The notes under the pieces are model-generated. The model saw only the letters and a list, made by a program, of their open reading frames with translations, did no database searches and had not been told where the DNA came from. Position numbers and translations under genes: made by a program. A DNA stretch of 64,000 bases from Haloferax marinisediminis (GTDB taxonomy: Archaea; Halobacteriota; Halobacteria; Halobacteriales; Haloferacaceae), in the NCBI RefSeq assembly GCF_009674585.1, contig NZ_WKJP01000004.1, positions 62,001 to 126,000 on the forward strand, given 5' to 3'. Positions 29,872 through 38,350 of the stretch are shown one piece after another (positions within the stretch are counted from its first letter, which is position 1; each line of letters begins with the position of its first letter).

Positions 29872-30849
29872 CTAGGCTGACTCGACGATGCATCGAAAGC
29901 TCACGTGGTTCGTCGAGGTGTCGATTGGCTCTGGGTAGCGTGCCGCCGGCCGGTATCGGAAGCAGTAGTTCGGCGCACAGAGATGCGACCCACCTTTGAG
30001 TACTTTCCGCGGAATCCTCGTCGGGTCTTGTGGATGGAGACTCTGTTCTTCTGTGACCCCCCGTGGGTTCGTCGGGGTACAACACGATGGAGAGTCAGAC
30101 GAACCTGCCTCAGGGTCGTCGCTGTACCAGTCACGTGTCCACTGCCACGCGTTCCCCGCCATATCGTACAGCCCGTACTCGTTCGGTGGGAACGCACCAA
30201 CTGGTGAGGTCCGCTCGTACCCATCGAGCGCCTCGTTTTGGTACGGGAACTGCCCTTGCCACGTGTTCGCCATCAGTTTGCCGTCGACGACGTGTTCGTC
30301 GCCCCAGACGAACCGCTTTCCTTCCAACCCGCCTCGTGCGGCGCGCTCCCACTGTGCCTCCGTCGGGAGCGTCTTTCCGGCCCACTCCGCGTAGGCGACA
30401 GCATCTTCGTAGGTGACGTGGACAACAGGGTGGTCGTCCTTGCCATCGATGGTGCTGTCGGGGCCGAGTGGATGCCGCCAGTCAGCACCGGGGACGTACG
30501 ACCACCAGTTACTCGGCTCTCTCGTATCGACCGGGTGGTTCGGTGACGAAAATACGGCCGAACCGGCGACGAGGTTGTCAGGGTCCACACCGGGGTAGTC
30601 GTCTGGGTTCGGTGGCCGTTCAGCGAACGTCGTGTATCCGGTGTCGTCGACGAACGCTGCAAACTCCGCGTTCGTGACGTGATGTGTATCCATCCAGAAC
30701 CCATCGACAGAGACCGTGTGCGGCGGACCCTCCTCTGGATAGAACTCGTCAGACCCCATGGTGTACGTGCCACCCGGAATCCAGACCATATCCTCGTGAG
30801 GTGGGTCAGTTGGTGCGTCCTCTCTCTGTTGTTCGGATTCGTTGGTCAT
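29872..30849 (-). CDS. Formylglycine-generating enzyme (SUMF1/EgtB/PvdO family)
   Basis: The product is 325 residues. It opens with MVWIPGGTYTMGSDEFYPEE and VDGFWMDTHHVTNAEFAAFV, the FGE-sulfatase domain start. It continues with HPVVHVTYEDAVAYAEWAGK, TEAQWERAARGGLEG, EYGLYDMAGNAWQWTRDWYS, and ends with GGSHLCAPNYCFRYRPAARY and HVSFRC. The two cysteines in SHLCAPNYC match the copper-binding active-site pair of human FGE and aerobic bacterial FGE, so it should convert a sulfatase Cys to formylglycine using oxygen. The arylsulfatase at 34219 carries the target motif. The ATG at 30849 begins the haloarchaeal acidic leader. No signal peptide is seen. Confidence 0.9.
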   Translation of the reverse strand: MTNESEQQREDAPTDPPHEDMVWIPGGTYTMGSDEFYPEEGPPHTVSVDGFWMDTHHVTNAEFAAFVDDTGYTTFAERPPNPDDYPGVDPDNLVAGSAVFSSPNHPVDTREPSNWWSYVPGADWRHPLGPDSTIDGKDDHPVVHVTYEDAVAYAEWAGKTLPTEAQWERAARGGLEGKRFVWGDEHVVDGKLMANTWQGQFPYQNEALDGYERTSPVGAFPPNEYGLYDMAGNAWQWTRDWYSDDPEAGSSDSPSCCTPTNPRGVTEEQSLHPQDPTRIPRKVLKGGSHLCAPNYCFRYRPAARYPEPIDTSTNHVSFRCIVESA

Positions 30850-30992
30850 TGTGAAGTCTTTGGTGCTGTCGTGGGCAGGAATGCCCTCACGTGTGGTCTG
30901 AGAAGACCGACTATTCGTGAGCTTCCACGTCAATTGTATAATACGTAGGACGATAAGTTTCACCCAGACCCAACCGTAAGAGTGCTATCGCA

Positions 30993-32228
30993 TCAGTCGT
31001 CTGCGAGTGATTCAGATGCGTCTGTGTCCTCGTACACGCCCCGTTCAGTTCGGACGTATGCACGGTAGACGAGTTGAGCGAGTGCGCCGGTACCGAGAAC
31101 AGCAACACCAGTATCGACGACTGGGCCGATAGCAGGAAGTGCAACGAGCAGTCCAACCACGAGTACACCAACGATGAGACTCACCCATCGGTTCTCGAGT
31201 GGCTCACGTTCGATATCTGCGTACGCGAGTACTCGGGGAACAGCTTCGAGAAGCCAGACACCAACAGCGAACCGACCGTAGATTGCACCAACCCACCAGA
31301 GCACGAGGAAGAGCGCACCACCGGCGAGCGCTAAGGGGAGGCCGAAGAGACTGAGCCCGAGGAGCACGAGGGCAATCGGTGCAACGATAACGGTCGCGAG
31401 TCCGAACCCAGCAGTTCGAACTGGGTCACGGACGACCTGGGACGCGACAGTGCTCGAGAATCGAGGAAGGAGTCCAACGAGCACGACGCCGAGGAGCAGG
31501 TTGACGAAGAAGCCGTACGCATCGAGGAACGAGATATTAAACGGCAGTATCTGAACTGGAACTGGCGCAATCGTCGACACCAGCACTGTCGGTGTTCTCA
31601 CGGGAGTGTTCCAGTCGAGGAACGACGCAACTGAGCCGGGTGATGAATCTGACGCAGCGTGCGAGAGTGGTAGCACATCAGCCGTTCTCGCGACTGATTG
31701 GTTCGTCGTCGTTCCCGCCTCGCCGAGAACAGTCCCATTGACGTTCGTTCTGACTGCTGTCGTTTTCAGTCGACCGTCGACCGTTGCACCCTCTTCGATA
31801 GTGACTAAGACGCCAATGGCATCGACCGTTCCCGCAACCTCACCTGAGACACTCAATGCCCCACCGACTGAGTCGATGCCGTCACCAACAGTCCCTTCGA
31901 TCGTCGTTACTCCGCCAAACGCTGTGACTTTCCCACCGACCTGTCCAGTCACCTCGACTCGACCCGCCACGGCAGTTACGTCACCGGTGACCTCGCCTGA
32001 GACGACCACATCGCCTGCGAGTGCGGTCACATCCCCGTCAACGGTTCCGAGAACGATGACCGTCCCAGCAGCCGTCGTCAGGTCGTCAGCGAGTGTCTCA
32101 CCACGCTCGACAACGACGGTCGGACCAACCTCCGTCTTGGCACTGGCCAGTCCGGGAATCGTCGCGAGGACGACTAGGACCATCACCATGCCGATGAGTA
32201 ATCTGCGAGAGAGTCGGCTACCGTGCAT
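30993..32228 (-). CDS. Bactofilin-like beta-helix protein with C-terminal membrane domain
   Basis: The product is 411 residues from the ATG at 32228. An N-terminal signal or anchor (LLIGMVMVLVVLATIPGLAS) precedes about 130 residues of short repeats built on V-x-G-x-V-x-G-D-V (for example TVIVLGTVDGDVTALAGDV and VVVSGEVTGDVTAVAGRV). This is the bactofilin/polymer-forming right-handed beta-helix pattern. Four or five hydrophobic helices follow (FFVNLLLGVVLVGLLPRF, APIALVLLGLSLFGLPLALA, WVSLIVGVLVVGLLVALPAI), ending in an acidic tail. The family is often annotated as polymer-forming cytoskeletal, with the beta-helix outside the membrane here. It lies 143 bases upstream of the FGE gene on the same strand. 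A functional link is unproven. Confidence 0.8.
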   Translation of the reverse strand: MHGSRLSRRLLIGMVMVLVVLATIPGLASAKTEVGPTVVVERGETLADDLTTAAGTVIVLGTVDGDVTALAGDVVVSGEVTGDVTAVAGRVEVTGQVGGKVTAFGGVTTIEGTVGDGIDSVGGALSVSGEVAGTVDAIGVLVTIEEGATVDGRLKTTAVRTNVNGTVLGEAGTTTNQSVARTADVLPLSHAASDSSPGSVASFLDWNTPVRTPTVLVSTIAPVPVQILPFNISFLDAYGFFVNLLLGVVLVGLLPRFSSTVASQVVRDPVRTAGFGLATVIVAPIALVLLGLSLFGLPLALAGGALFLVLWWVGAIYGRFAVGVWLLEAVPRVLAYADIEREPLENRWVSLIVGVLVVGLLVALPAIGPVVDTGVAVLGTGALAQLVYRAYVRTERGVYEDTDASESLADD

Positions 32229-32722
32229 GCTCTCTCCTCCATGACACGTGTTGGTCTGCAGTCGGACGCCCATCGATGGACGGAGAAACGTGCAGTCGCT
32301 TCCGACGGAGTACACCCACGGTGCCGGGTGGGAGTCTCCGACTTCTCGGTACTCGGTTTATCCGCTTTCTCTCTGCTGTCATCATCGTCGTTCACGTTGC
32401 ATACTGAGTGGTGGACGAGCAGCCCACTCCAGACTCACTTGGTCTCGGAACCTAGAGGCGAGCACACTCTCATGGAGACCAATCAGTGCGCTCGATGTGT
32501 CGGAACACACGTCCTCTCGCGCGTTCAGTTGTCAATCGATATAACAGTCTGGCAGAGAATAAATATGCGTTACTCAAAACCATACAGTCTGTGTTTTCTG
32601 AACGACTAGACACAGAGAAAGCCCAATTTATGCGCCAATCTTTATTTGAATGTAGAACGATTTCTAGCGCATTCCGGACGATGTTCGTCGGGTACACCGA
32701 TTCACATCCATGGAGGGAAATC
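32229..32722 (+). other. Divergent intergenic region
   Basis: About 490 bases between the bactofilin-like gene (reverse) and a membrane protein (forward). The right part (32540-32680) is AT-rich (CAGAGAATAAATATGCGTTA). No convincing gene was found; frames such as 32183-32395 on the reverse strand begin acidic but become Cys/Arg-rich and overlap the known start. Confidence 0.5.
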
Positions 32723-33325
32723 ATGAGTCAACAGTTACCCGAAGAGTGGTTCGTTCGTGACGAGAAGATCAATGCAGCAATCGCGTGGGTGATTACTGCT
32801 ATCCTCGCCATCATCGCAGTCATCGGCTTCCTCGCCGGCCTGCTCGTCGTCATGGCGATTGCAGCAGTCGCGGCGCTCGTCGCCATCACACCTGCAGCGG
32901 TCACCAAATCGTGGACACGAACAGTTTCGTGGCCGCTGTTGCTCCTTGCATCGCTCCCGTTAGTGCTCGGCGTCGGGCGACCAGCGTTCTTCACAGATGT
33001 CGTCATCGGCCTCAGCATCGCCACCCTCTCGATGCTCGTCGTCGTCGCACTCCAGATGACGACGACAGTTCGGATGACACCCAGGTTCGCGATCTTCTTC
33101 GTCATGTTGGCGACGTTGGCGTTCGCGGGGTTCTGGGCAGTGGGTTCTGCAATCTCTGCCCAGTATCTTGGAACGGCGTTCGTCGAGACCAACGAGCAAC
33201 TCATGATCATCTTCACCGCAGCAGCGATTGCAGGCGTACTGGGTGGACTCCTCTTCCGCTGGTACTTCAGAAGACAACTCAAGGCGAATCTCGAAGCGAT
33301 GCCTGACGCGGAGGTGGCAGCATGA
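32723..33325 (+). CDS. Small polytopic membrane protein, unknown
   Basis: The product is 200 residues from the ATG at 32723, which has GGAGGG just upstream (32711-32716). About six hydrophobic helices are visible, for example WVITAILAIIAVIGFLAGLL, WPLLLLASLPLVLGVGRPAF and IIFTAAAIAGVLGGLLFRWY. The C-terminus is short and charged (RRQLKANLEAMPDAEVAA). The stop overlaps the ATG of the next membrane gene (ATGA), so the two are translationally coupled and may form a complex. No family is recognised. Confidence 0.75.
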   Translation: MSQQLPEEWFVRDEKINAAIAWVITAILAIIAVIGFLAGLLVVMAIAAVAALVAITPAAVTKSWTRTVSWPLLLLASLPLVLGVGRPAFFTDVVIGLSIATLSMLVVVALQMTTTVRMTPRFAIFFVMLATLAFAGFWAVGSAISAQYLGTAFVETNEQLMIIFTAAAIAGVLGGLLFRWYFRRQLKANLEAMPDAEVAA

Positions 33326-33990
33326 TTGCCGAAAAGCAGGTGAAGAAGACTGGACGAGTAGAGCGAATACTCGTCCGCATCCTCCAAGTGTTGATGCTCA
33401 TCATCTTCGCGCTGGGGTTGTACTACGGAAACAGCGGTGTGTTCGTCAACGCTGGCGTCGGACTCTTCGTCACCTTCCTTCCGGGGATTCTCAAGCGCCG
33501 GTACGACTTTACCATGAACATCGGGATCGTCCTCTGGATATCCGTCGCGATGTTCCTGCACGCCTTCGGGACGCTCCCACTCCCGGGTCTCGACTTCCTG
33601 AGCCCGTACAAGGCCGTCTGGTGGTGGGACCACATGACCCACGCGCTGTCGTCGTCGCTGGTTGCAGGTGCTGCGTACGCGGTGACACGGGCGCTGATGG
33701 AGTACACAGAGTACATCAACATGCCGCCGAGGTTCATGTTCGCGTATCTCCTCATCTTCGTGATGGCCTTCGGTGTGCTGTGGGAACTCCTCGAGTTCTA
33801 CATCGGTGTCGTATCCCAGCTGGCCGGCGCAGAAGAGGTTCTCACCCAGTACGGACTCGACGACACCGTCCTCGACCTGATGTACAACACACTCGGTGGA
33901 CTGCTGGTCGCAATCTTCGGGACTGCACACCTGGCCGGTCTATCCGACGAACTCCTCGGCAGAATGGAAGGGGAGTCTGCAGAGCGCTGA
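33322..33990 (+). CDS. Membrane protein, DUF2238-like
   Basis: The product is 222 residues with about six helices. It contains YKAVWWWDHMTHALSSSLVA, AFGVLWELLEFYIGVVSQ and LDDTVLDLMYNTLGGLLVAI. The pattern W-D-x-x-x-H-x-x-S, W-E-x-x-E and D-T-x-x-D-x-x-x-N-x-x-G resembles the DUF2238 (YjdF) family of integral membrane proteins with conserved acidic and His residues inside helices. Biochemical function is unknown. It overlaps the preceding membrane gene by 4 bases and ends before a strong hairpin. Confidence 0.75.
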   Translation: MIAEKQVKKTGRVERILVRILQVLMLIIFALGLYYGNSGVFVNAGVGLFVTFLPGILKRRYDFTMNIGIVLWISVAMFLHAFGTLPLPGLDFLSPYKAVWWWDHMTHALSSSLVAGAAYAVTRALMEYTEYINMPPRFMFAYLLIFVMAFGVLWELLEFYIGVVSQLAGAEEVLTQYGLDDTVLDLMYNTLGGLLVAIFGTAHLAGLSDELLGRMEGESAER

Positions 33991-34008
33991 GAAAGAACGG
34001 ACAGACTC

Positions 34009-34036
34009 ACCTCTCGAACCGAAGTTCGGGAGAGGT
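34009..34036 (+). terminator. Probable terminator after the two-membrane-protein operon
   Basis: ACCTCTC-GAAC-CGAA-GTTC-(GG)-GAGAGGT forms an 11-base-pair stem with a two-base bulge, beginning 18 bases after the stop at 33990. No long T-tract follows. Confidence 0.5.
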
Positions 34037-34218
34037 AGAAACTATAGATTTTCTGGACAATCATCCATCGCGTAAAAAATCGTTATTGTTCCACCCGTTG
34101 ATTTCTCAGACATCCCACGGCCGAGAGAGTTGGTGGTGGAAGTCGCCTAGTCCAGTGATATGGGAGAGGAGTCACCTCGCTCGCACTGACTCTCGGCTAC
34201 CTGTGGAGAAACATATCA

Positions 34219-36537
34219 ATGTCTAACCGAGAATTCCACGGCCACATCGGCCGCACGTACGACGAATCAGAACCCTGGTGGCCCGAACAAACACGCGCTC
34301 CAGAAGATGCCCCGAACGTCATGATGGTCGTCCTCGACGACGTCGGGTTTGGTCAATTAGGATGCTATGGTGGGCTCATCGACACCCCGAACATCGACCG
34401 GATTGCAGACAACGGTCTTCGGTACAACAACTTCCACACGACTGCACTCTGTTCACCGACGCGGTCGTGTCTCATGACGGGGCGAAACCACCACTCGAAC
34501 GCCATGGCTGGAATTACCGAGATTTCGACGGGGTTCCCCGGCTACAACGGCCACATTCCCCACGAGAACGGGATGGTTTCCGAGATGCTCGTCGAACAGG
34601 GCTACAGCACGTATGCCCTCGGGAAGTGGCACCTTACACCTGCCGAGGCAGGTAGTGCGGCCGGCCCGTACGACCAGTGGCCACTTGGCCGTGGCTTCGA
34701 ACGCTTCTACGGCTTCCTCGGCGGCGACACCGACCAGTATACACCCACACTGGTACACGACAACCATCAGGCCGAGCCACCCGCGACGCCAGATGAGGGG
34801 TACCACCTCACCGAAGATCTCGCCCAGCGCACTATCGAGTTCATCAGTGACGCTAAACAGGTCGACCCCGACAAACCGTTCTTCACGTACTTCTGTCCCG
34901 GTGCGTGTCACGCGCCGCACCAGGTGCCCAAAGAGTGGGCAGACAAATACGCAGGAGAATTCGACATGGGCTGGGACGAAGCCCGCGAGATGATTCTCGA
35001 ACAACAGAAGAAAATGGGCATCGTCCCCGAGAACACGGACCTCTCACCGCACAACCCGGACGTTCCGCACTGGGATTCACTCTCAGAAGACGAACAGCGC
35101 CTGTACGCCCGTATGATGGAAGTGTTCGCGGGGTTCCTCGAACACACCGACGCCCAGATTGGAAAGGTCCTCGACTACCTCGAAGAACTCGGCGAACTCG
35201 ACAACACGATCATCATGCTCGTCTCGGACAACGGCGCGAGCGCCGAGGGTGGACCAACCGGTTCAGTCAACGAGAACCGCTTCTTCAACAACGTCCCAGA
35301 GTCGCTCGAAGAGAACCTCGAAGCGATGGACGAGCTGGGTGGCCCGAAGTATTTCAACCACTACCCGTGGGGGTGGACGTGGGCTGGTGATACGCCGTTC
35401 CAGCGCTGGAAGCGCGAGACCCACCGCGGCGGCACGAGCGACCCACTCGTCGTCTCGTGGCCCGAGGGTATCGACGCCCGCGGCGAGATTCGAAGTCAGT
35501 TCACCCACGCAATCGACCTCGTACCGACCATTCTGGAATTGGTCGGCATCGATGCACCTGACGAGATTAAGGGCGTGTCGCAGTCGCCCATCGAAGGAAT
35601 CAGTTTCGCCTACTCCTTGGAGGAACCAGACGCACCCGAACAGCACACCACGCAGTACTTCGAGATGCTCGGTACTCGCGCCATCTACCACGATGGCTGG
35701 CGCGCCGTCCACCCGTGGCCACTCGGCAAGGTCATGACCGCTGAGGACCTCTCGGCGACGACGCTCGAAGACTCTGAGTGGGAACTGTACAACCTCCGTG
35801 AGGACTTCTCCGAAGCGCACGACGTGGCAGCAGAGAACCCAGAAAAGATTCTCGAACTCGCTCAGCTGTGGTGGACAGAAGCTGGCAAGCACAACGTCCT
35901 TCCACTCGACGGCCGCGGCATCCAGCGCCTCGCTGAACCCCGGCCTCAGCCCGGCAAATCCCGTGACCGGTACGTCTACTATCCGGGAACCCAGCACATT
36001 CCAGAGAACGCCGCCGTCAGGGTCCTCAACCGCGACCACAGCATCACGGCAGATATCACAGTCCCCGAGGGTGGGGCCGAAGGTGTCCTCCTCGCCCACG
36101 GTGCGCGGTCCGGTGGCTACTCGCTGTACGTCAAGAACAATCGCCTCCGCTACGTCCACAACTACGTGGGTGTCGAGGAGTACGAAGTCATCGCCGACAA
36201 GCCAATCCCGGAAGGAGAAATTTCGGTCCGAATGGAGTTCGATGCCACTGGTGAGCCCAATATGAGTGAAGGGAAAGGCGCCCCCGCGACCATCCGGCTC
36301 TACTACGGTGACGAACAGGTCGGAGAAGGCGACATCCCGACGTCGATCCCCAACACGATGGGACTGACTGCTGGCCTGAGTTGCGGCCGCGATGCCGTCA
36401 ACGCAGTCACCGACGAGTACCGTGACCAGACCCCGTTCGAATTCACGGGTGACATCACACGAGTGACCGTCGACGTCAGTGGTGAACCATTCACCCACCA
36501 CGAAGCCGCAATGGACCAGATAATGGCGAGAGAATAG
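34219..36537 (+). CDS. Arylsulfatase (formylglycine-dependent, alkaline-phosphatase superfamily)
   Basis: The product is 772 residues with no signal peptide. Metal-binding start: MMVVLDDVGFGQLGCYG. The modification motif is ALCSPTRSCLMTGRNHH, where Cys78 in C-S-P-T-R is the residue oxidised to formylglycine. Second signature: STYALGKWHLTP. Further metal and substrate residues lie in CHAPHQVP and LVSDNGASAEGG. A beta-rich C-terminal domain (from about 600) ends in GEPFTHHEAAMDQIMARE. The length matches large bacterial-type arylsulfatases. The FGE at 29872 is the probable activator. Acting in the cytoplasm, it should hydrolyse sulfate esters taken up or released from polysaccharides. Its 5' end is copied in the small gene at 36817. 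Confidence 0.92.
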   Translation: MSNREFHGHIGRTYDESEPWWPEQTRAPEDAPNVMMVVLDDVGFGQLGCYGGLIDTPNIDRIADNGLRYNNFHTTALCSPTRSCLMTGRNHHSNAMAGITEISTGFPGYNGHIPHENGMVSEMLVEQGYSTYALGKWHLTPAEAGSAAGPYDQWPLGRGFERFYGFLGGDTDQYTPTLVHDNHQAEPPATPDEGYHLTEDLAQRTIEFISDAKQVDPDKPFFTYFCPGACHAPHQVPKEWADKYAGEFDMGWDEAREMILEQQKKMGIVPENTDLSPHNPDVPHWDSLSEDEQRLYARMMEVFAGFLEHTDAQIGKVLDYLEELGELDNTIIMLVSDNGASAEGGPTGSVNENRFFNNVPESLEENLEAMDELGGPKYFNHYPWGWTWAGDTPFQRWKRETHRGGTSDPLVVSWPEGIDARGEIRSQFTHAIDLVPTILELVGIDAPDEIKGVSQSPIEGISFAYSLEEPDAPEQHTTQYFEMLGTRAIYHDGWRAVHPWPLGKVMTAEDLSATTLEDSEWELYNLREDFSEAHDVAAENPEKILELAQLWWTEAGKHNVLPLDGRGIQRLAEPRPQPGKSRDRYVYYPGTQHIPENAAVRVLNRDHSITADITVPEGGAEGVLLAHGARSGGYSLYVKNNRLRYVHNYVGVEEYEVIADKPIPEGEISVRMEFDATGEPNMSEGKGAPATIRLYYGDEQVGEGDIPTSIPNTMGLTAGLSCGRDAVNAVTDEYRDQTPFEFTGDITRVTVDVSGEPFTHHEAAMDQIMARE

Positions 36538-36549
36538 CCCTCCAGAGAA

Positions 36550-36570
36550 GCCTCTCGCCTTCGCGGAGGC
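36550..36570 (+). terminator. Probable terminator after the sulfatase
   Basis: GCCTC(T)CGC-CTTC-GCG-GAGGC forms an 8-base-pair stem with a one-base bulge and a CTTC loop, 12 bases after the sulfatase stop. ATTTTTGG follows about 40 bases later. Confidence 0.45.
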
Positions 36571-36816
36571 ACAAACCGGGGACAGTGTGTCCAACACGTC
36601 GTCTCCGAACGGATTTTTGGGTAACTACGAATAGCGGCTTTTATGCTGAATGTTTCAAGAATCGGATTCTTATCTCGGATGTGAAAAACGGACATAGTAT
36701 CTTCCAACCACAATTCAAGCGCTGACGGTGAGAGTCGACGCCACAGGCGAAGGGGTCGACGGTGGTACATCGCACGAATCGACTCTTGTCCCCGAGGATG
36801 TGGGGAGAGACAGTGT

Positions 36817-37059
36817 ATGTCTAAGCAAGAATTCCACGGCCACATTCCCCACGAGAACGGGATGGTTTCCGAGATACTCGACGAGCTATACAATAGTCTC
36901 GACTCCGAAGGAATCGACCTTCGAATCGCCGAGGCGAGGGAGCGAGTCACGTCACTCCTGGAGGCCGCGGGTCTAGACGAAGACCTCGGAGATATTCGCG
37001 CCGGAGAGTCCATCGCGTCGGTCATCGACCACTGGAGAAGCGAGGACAACACGGACTGA
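36817..37059 (+). CDS. Small chimeric protein: sulfatase 5' end joined across an internal deletion, with a new C-terminus
   Basis: The product is 80 residues. Residues 1-10 (MSKQEFHGHI) match the sulfatase start (MSNREFHGHI). Residues 8-20 (GHIPHENGMVSEI) match the sulfatase near residue 110 (GHIPHENGMVSEM). The DNA is almost identical in both parts. The junction is ACGGCCACAT, a 10-base sequence that occurs twice in the sulfatase gene (34238 and 34547), exactly 309 bases apart and in frame. The remaining 60 residues (helical, acidic: RERVTSLLEAAGLDEDLGDI) are unrelated to the sulfatase. It is either a decayed paralogue or a new small protein. GGGGAGAG lies upstream of the ATG. Confidence 0.6.
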   Translation: MSKQEFHGHIPHENGMVSEILDELYNSLDSEGIDLRIAEARERVTSLLEAAGLDEDLGDIRAGESIASVIDHWRSEDNTD

Positions 37060-37142
37060 GCGCTACAACGAACTCTTGGGAGGCGCGAGCGAACGAAACC
37101 GACGCCTCGTTAGACGACAACTGTCCGTCCAGCCCGTTACAG

Positions 37143-37505
37143 TCACCCAACGGGCAGTTCGTCTCGATGAGTCAGTAGCAATTGAAGGAGTGGTTCAATC
37201 TCGTTCCACTCCGAACCCGTACTGATTTCGTTCGTCTCTCGATTCCAGTCGATGAACCCCAGATTGCTGAGTTTTGGGAGGTGGACGTGAACGAGCTCAA
37301 TCTGTGTAGAGTCAACACCATCACCATCGTCATCCCGGCCTTCGGTGAAGACCTCGAATGGAGCGAAAGAACCGTTACGGGTACGGTTCCTCTCTTCGAG
37401 AGCAAAAAGTAACTGGCGGCGATATGGGTTGGAGAGAGCTTCGAAGACGTCATCGATCCTCGATGTGCGCGTCGTCGTCTCGTGGTCCAATGTCTCACGC
37501 GCCAT
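37143..37505 (-). CDS. Winged-helix protein of the haloarchaeal DUF7344/ArsR-like type
   Basis: The product is 120 residues. It contains RIDDVFEALSNPYRRQLLFA, then IELVHVHLPKLSNLGFIDWN and a C-terminal helix (NEIEPLLQLLLTHRDEL). The 'SNPYRRQLL' helix and the 'HxxLPKLxxxGxIxW' recognition/wing region are typical of small haloarchaeal winged-helix regulators. The linker is acidic (EGRDDDGDGVDS). No sensor domain is present. Targets are unknown. It lies immediately upstream of the bat-type regulator on the same strand but about 70 bases away from it. Confidence 0.75.
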   Translation of the reverse strand: MARETLDHETTTRTSRIDDVFEALSNPYRRQLLFALEERNRTRNGSFAPFEVFTEGRDDDGDGVDSTQIELVHVHLPKLSNLGFIDWNRETNEISTGSEWNEIEPLLQLLLTHRDELPVG

Positions 37506-37573
37506 ACACGGAATACGTCAGCCTGTGGGTTGAGGTTACAGGTTGACTCGTAAATCCATTTAAATATTGATGA

Positions 37574-38233
37574 TCATTCTGAATCCGCCGTCGACGACAG
37601 AAGCGTGCTACGGAGGACTTTCTCGTTGCCGAGACGAATACGATGTGACAGCGCTTGTCTACTGATTTCGAGTTCGGCGGCCAAATCGTCGAGACTCACC
37701 TCGCTCGGTGTCGCGAAATAGCCACGTGTGAGGGCGAGAACGAGTGCTTCGCGTTGTTCGTGCGTGAGGTCGAATCTGTAGCCATGTCCGTCTTCGTCCG
37801 TGAGCGTGAACGTCCGTTCGACGGTGAGTGGGATGTTCTGTCCCGTGACATCGTCGTGAAACATGGAGAGTTTGTCGTGAGTCGAGAACCGAAGGCGGAA
37901 GAACCACTCGTCGTTGCCCCGCGCCTCGAGCACAGTCGCATCCGCTGCTGCGATGCTTTCGATGAGGTGTGTGGGTTCCTCGTTCCACTCGATACGATAG
38001 AGTCGACTATTCTCGATGGAATCGAGGAGGAGAAGTTCTTTGACCCGAGGACTGTTCCGAACGCTTTGTTCGAACAGGTCTTGGTCGTCACCGGTCACCC
38101 ACACGAACGGCATAACCATACCCCCAGTCGGGACGACCCGTTCGAGTTCGAGATGCATGGTGGGCGGCCCCATCAACACCTCACCGAGGCCGAAGTCCTC
38201 GGCAGCGATTGAGAACTCCAAGATAACGCTCAT
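37574..38233 (-). CDS. Bat-type helix-turn-helix regulator (HTH_10)
   Basis: The product is 219 residues from the ATG at 38233, 25 bases after a TATA box (CTATATACT). The N-terminal part (MSVILEFSIAAEDFGLGEVL, ELERVVPTGGMVMPFVWVTG) is a haloarchaeal sensor-like domain found with HTH_10 proteins. The C-terminal HTH reads TRGYFATPSEVSLDDLAAEL then EISRQALSHRIRLGNEKVL, the Bat-type DNA-binding helices. Family members regulate bacteriorhodopsin, gas vesicle or stress genes; the target here is unknown. It has no obvious operon partner. Confidence 0.85.
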   Translation of the reverse strand: MSVILEFSIAAEDFGLGEVLMGPPTMHLELERVVPTGGMVMPFVWVTGDDQDLFEQSVRNSPRVKELLLLDSIENSRLYRIEWNEEPTHLIESIAAADATVLEARGNDEWFFRLRFSTHDKLSMFHDDVTGQNIPLTVERTFTLTDEDGHGYRFDLTHEQREALVLALTRGYFATPSEVSLDDLAAELEISRQALSHRIRLGNEKVLRSTLLSSTADSE

Positions 38234-38350
38234 ACAGAGAAAGATGACAGCGAAGTATATAGAATCCACACCCACGACGCTCCGACACGGCCCTGTATCG
38301 TCCGTGTTCCGGAGACTCTTTTCCGCCGATGCGGCCGATATCGACGGGGC

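Follow-up and report, generated by a model that had tools for sequence, protein, structure and literature searches.

A probable remnant of sulfatase and SulP permease genes in the sulfatase cluster of Haloferax marinisediminis

Among haloarchaeal SulP sulfate permeases, the two full-length relatives that were checked carry both the Sulfate_transp membrane domain (PF00916) and a STAS domain, and one of them passes the cut-off of the NCBIfam sulfate permease model TIGR00815. Three haloarchaeal genera other than Haloferax (genomes G101, G038 and G263) have a SulP gene no more than about 5 kb away from a sulfatase gene approximately 79% identical to the one described below, on the opposite strand to that gene; a gene for a formylglycine-generating enzyme (FGE) is also close by in G101 and G263. 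Two haloarchaeal families have sulfatase clusters in which SulP is immediately followed by a membrane gene of the SfLAP family (L182 9328-9957 and L058 8155-8799, the latter matching PF11139). Four other haloarchaea (G165, G243, G345 and G317) retain orphan SulP 3' ends, as C-terminal fragments (L061 8125-8691, L183 9495-9923, L185 9922-10224 and L187 9893-10156), some of which adjoin mobile-element or unrelated genes. Thus, the loss of a SulP gene sparing its end appears to be a repeated event in haloarchaea.

The window analyzed here is a stretch of 64,000 nucleotides of Haloferax marinisediminis (contig NZ_WKJP01000004.1). It contains an intact arylsulfatase-type gene (772 amino acids, PF00884; 34219..36537, forward strand) and, on the reverse strand, an FGE-like gene (29872..30963, PF03781) that is likely the maturation partner of the sulfatase. 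Positions 29872-38275 form a conserved Haloferax cluster in which DUF7344 and HTH_10/BAT regulators follow the sulfatase. The gene order is the same in genome G006 and in H. marinum, running from the FGE-like gene through a bactofilin-like gene (named by eye), genes 32486 and 33322, the sulfatase and the DUF7344 gene to the next genes, except that H. marinum has no match to gene 37574. The H. massiliensis FGE-like gene (L108 5544-6550) is read in two overlapping frames and may be frameshifted.

The gap between the sulfatase and DUF7344 genes measures 605 bp in the window (36538..37142) versus 138 bp in G006 and 66 bp in H. marinum, both syntenic; H. marinisediminis thus has approximately 470-540 bp of extra DNA at this site. 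Of the species compared, H. marinisediminis is thus the only one with this additional 0.5 kb or so. Searches of positions 36538-36816 with tblastx and blastn found no sulfatase or SulP remains, and the region has no match in PLSDB. At the edges of the extra segment, intergenic DNA aligns with that of G006, H. marinum and H. profundi no better than expected by chance.

Within the gap lies an open reading frame (ORF) of 80 codons (36817..37059, forward strand, ATG start), whose beginning is made of sulfatase sequence. Positions 36817-36845, corresponding to sulfatase codons 1-10, are identical to the sulfatase start (34219-34247) at 27 of 29 nucleotides (93%), and positions 36836-36884, corresponding to codons from about 110 to 124 or 126, are identical to 34547-34595 at 47 of 49 (96%), with blastn E-values within the genome of 7.9e-5 and 1.1e-15, respectively. 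An initial annotation, made from the DNA sequence alone, had proposed that ten codons of the sulfatase start are followed by ten codons from near codon 110. The first match holds, the aligned ORF start agreeing with the sulfatase well beyond chance; the second is real in position but longer than claimed, at some 13-16 codons.

The two pieces overlap within a 10-bp repeat, ACGGCCACAT (36836..36845, forward strand), that is also present in the sulfatase gene at 34238 and 34547. These two copies are 309 bp apart and in frame, and the join keeps the reading frame. Overlaps of at least 10 bp arose in about 2e-5 of 2 million random joins simulated inside the sulfatase gene, confirming that the block pattern with its repeat overlap is far above chance. 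The blastn matches and the random-join simulation therefore support well the proposal that the ORF contains an in-frame join at this repeat in a copy of the sulfatase gene.

The second piece is identical to the resident sulfatase at all 40 nucleotides up to 36875 and then has two mismatches; 15 sulfatase genes from related haloarchaea match the same 40 nucleotides at only 30-35 positions. This points to the middle piece being a recent copy of the resident gene. The start piece, which differs at 2 of 29 nucleotides, could come from a diverged second sulfatase copy, and tandem sulfatase copies are present in two relatives (L063 and L107). DNA upstream of the ORF was also considered as a copy of the sulfatase upstream region, a reading that was dropped. 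The similarity is weak at best, which counts against the explanation favored below: relative to a base-shuffle control only, the global score at 80 bp was reached by 0 of 500 shuffles and the local score at 200 bp by 40 of 500. The product of the ORF has no Pfam match to PF00884 and contains neither the CxPxR motif nor the sulfatase core.

The remainder of the ORF (36871..37059, forward strand) comes, as Pfam and protein alignments show, from the 3' end of a gene for a SulP sulfate permease. Residues 16-57 match STAS positions 56-97 of 106 with an E-value of 2.6e-4 and a score of 21.2 bits, just under the curated 22.6-bit cut-off; the domain is incomplete and its N-terminal half is absent. Residues 17-78 or so align with the C-terminal 60 or so residues of full-length haloarchaeal SulP proteins (best E-value about 1e-14), with identities ranging from 39% up to 56-57%, including 57% to L058, 51% to L059 and 49% to L182. 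Family-wide and order-wide searches with the tail returned mostly full-length open frames of approximately 570-660 codons that match over their last 60 or so residues. Pfam finds no PF00916 match in the ORF. The tail had been described in the initial annotation as unrelated and as a new helical end; it is indeed unrelated to sulfatases, but it is neither new nor without kin, since it corresponds to the C-terminal end of the SulP STAS domain. That annotation had also named membership of the tail in a known domain unrelated to sulfatases as an outcome that would speak against it, and this is what was found for the tail, leaving the repeat-mediated join untouched.

Because the tail derives from a SulP gene, the ORF contains two joins rather than one. 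The second lies at 36869..36884 (forward strand), in a zone over which the sulfatase and SulP genes have similar DNA (GAGATxCTCGxCGA); the codons of the ORF in this zone, GAG ATA CTC GAC GAG, resemble both. To the left of the zone, the ORF has the exact sulfatase sequence and does not resemble SulP; to the right, it resembles SulP and no longer the sulfatase. The 80-residue product is therefore a chimera of three pieces with two junctions, both in frame.

The 15 Haloferax genomes searched contain no full-length SulP and no complete SulP STAS domain. Their PF00916 matches are all weak and partial, and no STAS match besides that in the ORF covers this end of the domain. One explanation for the site is that an already rearranged segment arrived whole, by horizontal transfer or ectopic insertion, instead of forming on site by deletion in a sulfatase-copy/SulP cluster. 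The whole segment is indeed missing from the syntenic G006 and H. marinum, and the best relatives of the tail belong to other genera and another family. However, the 40 middle nucleotides identical to the resident sulfatase probably arose in this genome, and no donor record with the fusion turned up in the genome contigs collection or in PLSDB. Arrival as one segment is thus unlikely.

A second alternative is that the ORF encodes a functional small fusion, in which the sulfatase start would drive expression and the STAS end would be a small domain that regulates or binds a partner. Several features are in its favor and count against a remnant: no stop interrupts the frame between the ATG and roughly the usual end of SulP, neither join shifts it, the residues conserved in SulP are mostly retained, and third-position GC is 0.717, normal for the region, which speaks against visible decay of the tail. 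Yet an open frame is explained by recent origin alone, and an open frame with normal third-position GC would fit a young remnant and a young gene equally. The STAS domain, however, is limited to positions 56-97 of 106, and the genome lacks a SulP partner. None of the 14 congeners, of the other family genomes (170 in all) or of the 392 order-sample genomes carries the fusion; a direct search with the small protein across the genome contigs collection found no relative, and a literature search yielded nothing relevant. Half a STAS domain behind a sulfatase leader, with no transporter and nothing similar conserved, is not expected to work on these sequence grounds, and a functional fusion is accordingly very improbable. 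Slightly more doubtful still is a newborn functional gene, that is, an expressed 80-residue fusion of sulfatase leader and half STAS created by two in-frame short-homology joins.

The "new small gene" of the initial annotation is therefore not upheld: only the C-terminal half of STAS is there, no relative carries the fusion, and the pattern fits a remnant, in which pieces of at least two known genes, each truncated, are joined. We favor, with a probability of about 0.8, the reading of the ORF as a rearrangement scar left by a sulfatase copy and a SulP gene and not a working gene; it is probably a lineage-specific, non-functional remnant and a pseudogene. The lack of function is what we infer, unlike the pieces, their sources, the in-frame joins, the sequence likeness at each join, the missing SulP in the Haloferax genomes searched and the extra DNA relative to syntenic species, which are observed directly.

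Under the remnant reading, a sulfatase copy and a SulP gene would once have been adjacent at this site. The SulP genes near related sulfatases in G101, G038 and G263, the tandem sulfatase copies in L063 and L107 and the orphan SulP ends of other haloarchaea favor this reading. The 5' region of a second sulfatase copy may have collapsed at ACGGCCACAT, losing 103 codons, and been joined to the SulP 3' end at the short stretch of common sequence, with the SulP gene almost wholly lost and its last 60 or so codons left. Slippage or short-homology recombination would be the mechanism, and the order of these events is likewise putative. The frame of the tail may have been kept by chance, or its phase set by the shared codons. 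Because SulP is on the opposite strand in G101, G038 and G263, these genomes do not fix the exact ancestral layout, and a plain deletion cannot yield a same-strand fusion from theirs; an inversion or an extra copy would be required.

The remnant is ordinary in kind and recent, and its junctions are unusually legible. It would provide a readable trace of how short repeats rearranged haloarchaeal DNA and of how a sulfatase cluster lost a sulfate transporter, as well as a caution for annotation that such scraps are not to be called genes; the fusion would gain in importance only if proved to be expressed and retained.

Compared with the intact sulfatase (34219-36537, PF00884), the ORF holds codons 1-10 and about 110-124 in the same frame but has no catalytic core, as codons 11-109, including the CSPTR motif, and everything after about codon 126 are gone. 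Compared with SulP permeases (TIGR00815; PF00916 plus STAS, PF01740; L058, L059 and L182), its last 60 or so residues align and the ends nearly coincide, whereas it lacks any transmembrane segment and the first half of STAS and has a sulfatase-derived N-terminus. The ORF also has parallels in the orphan SulP fragments (L061, L183, L185 and L187), in which the SulP 3' end alone survives behind other DNA; their 5' neighbors, however, are not sulfatase fragments but, as judged by eye, include a TnpB-like transposon-type frame in L061 and a PEBP-like frame in L183.
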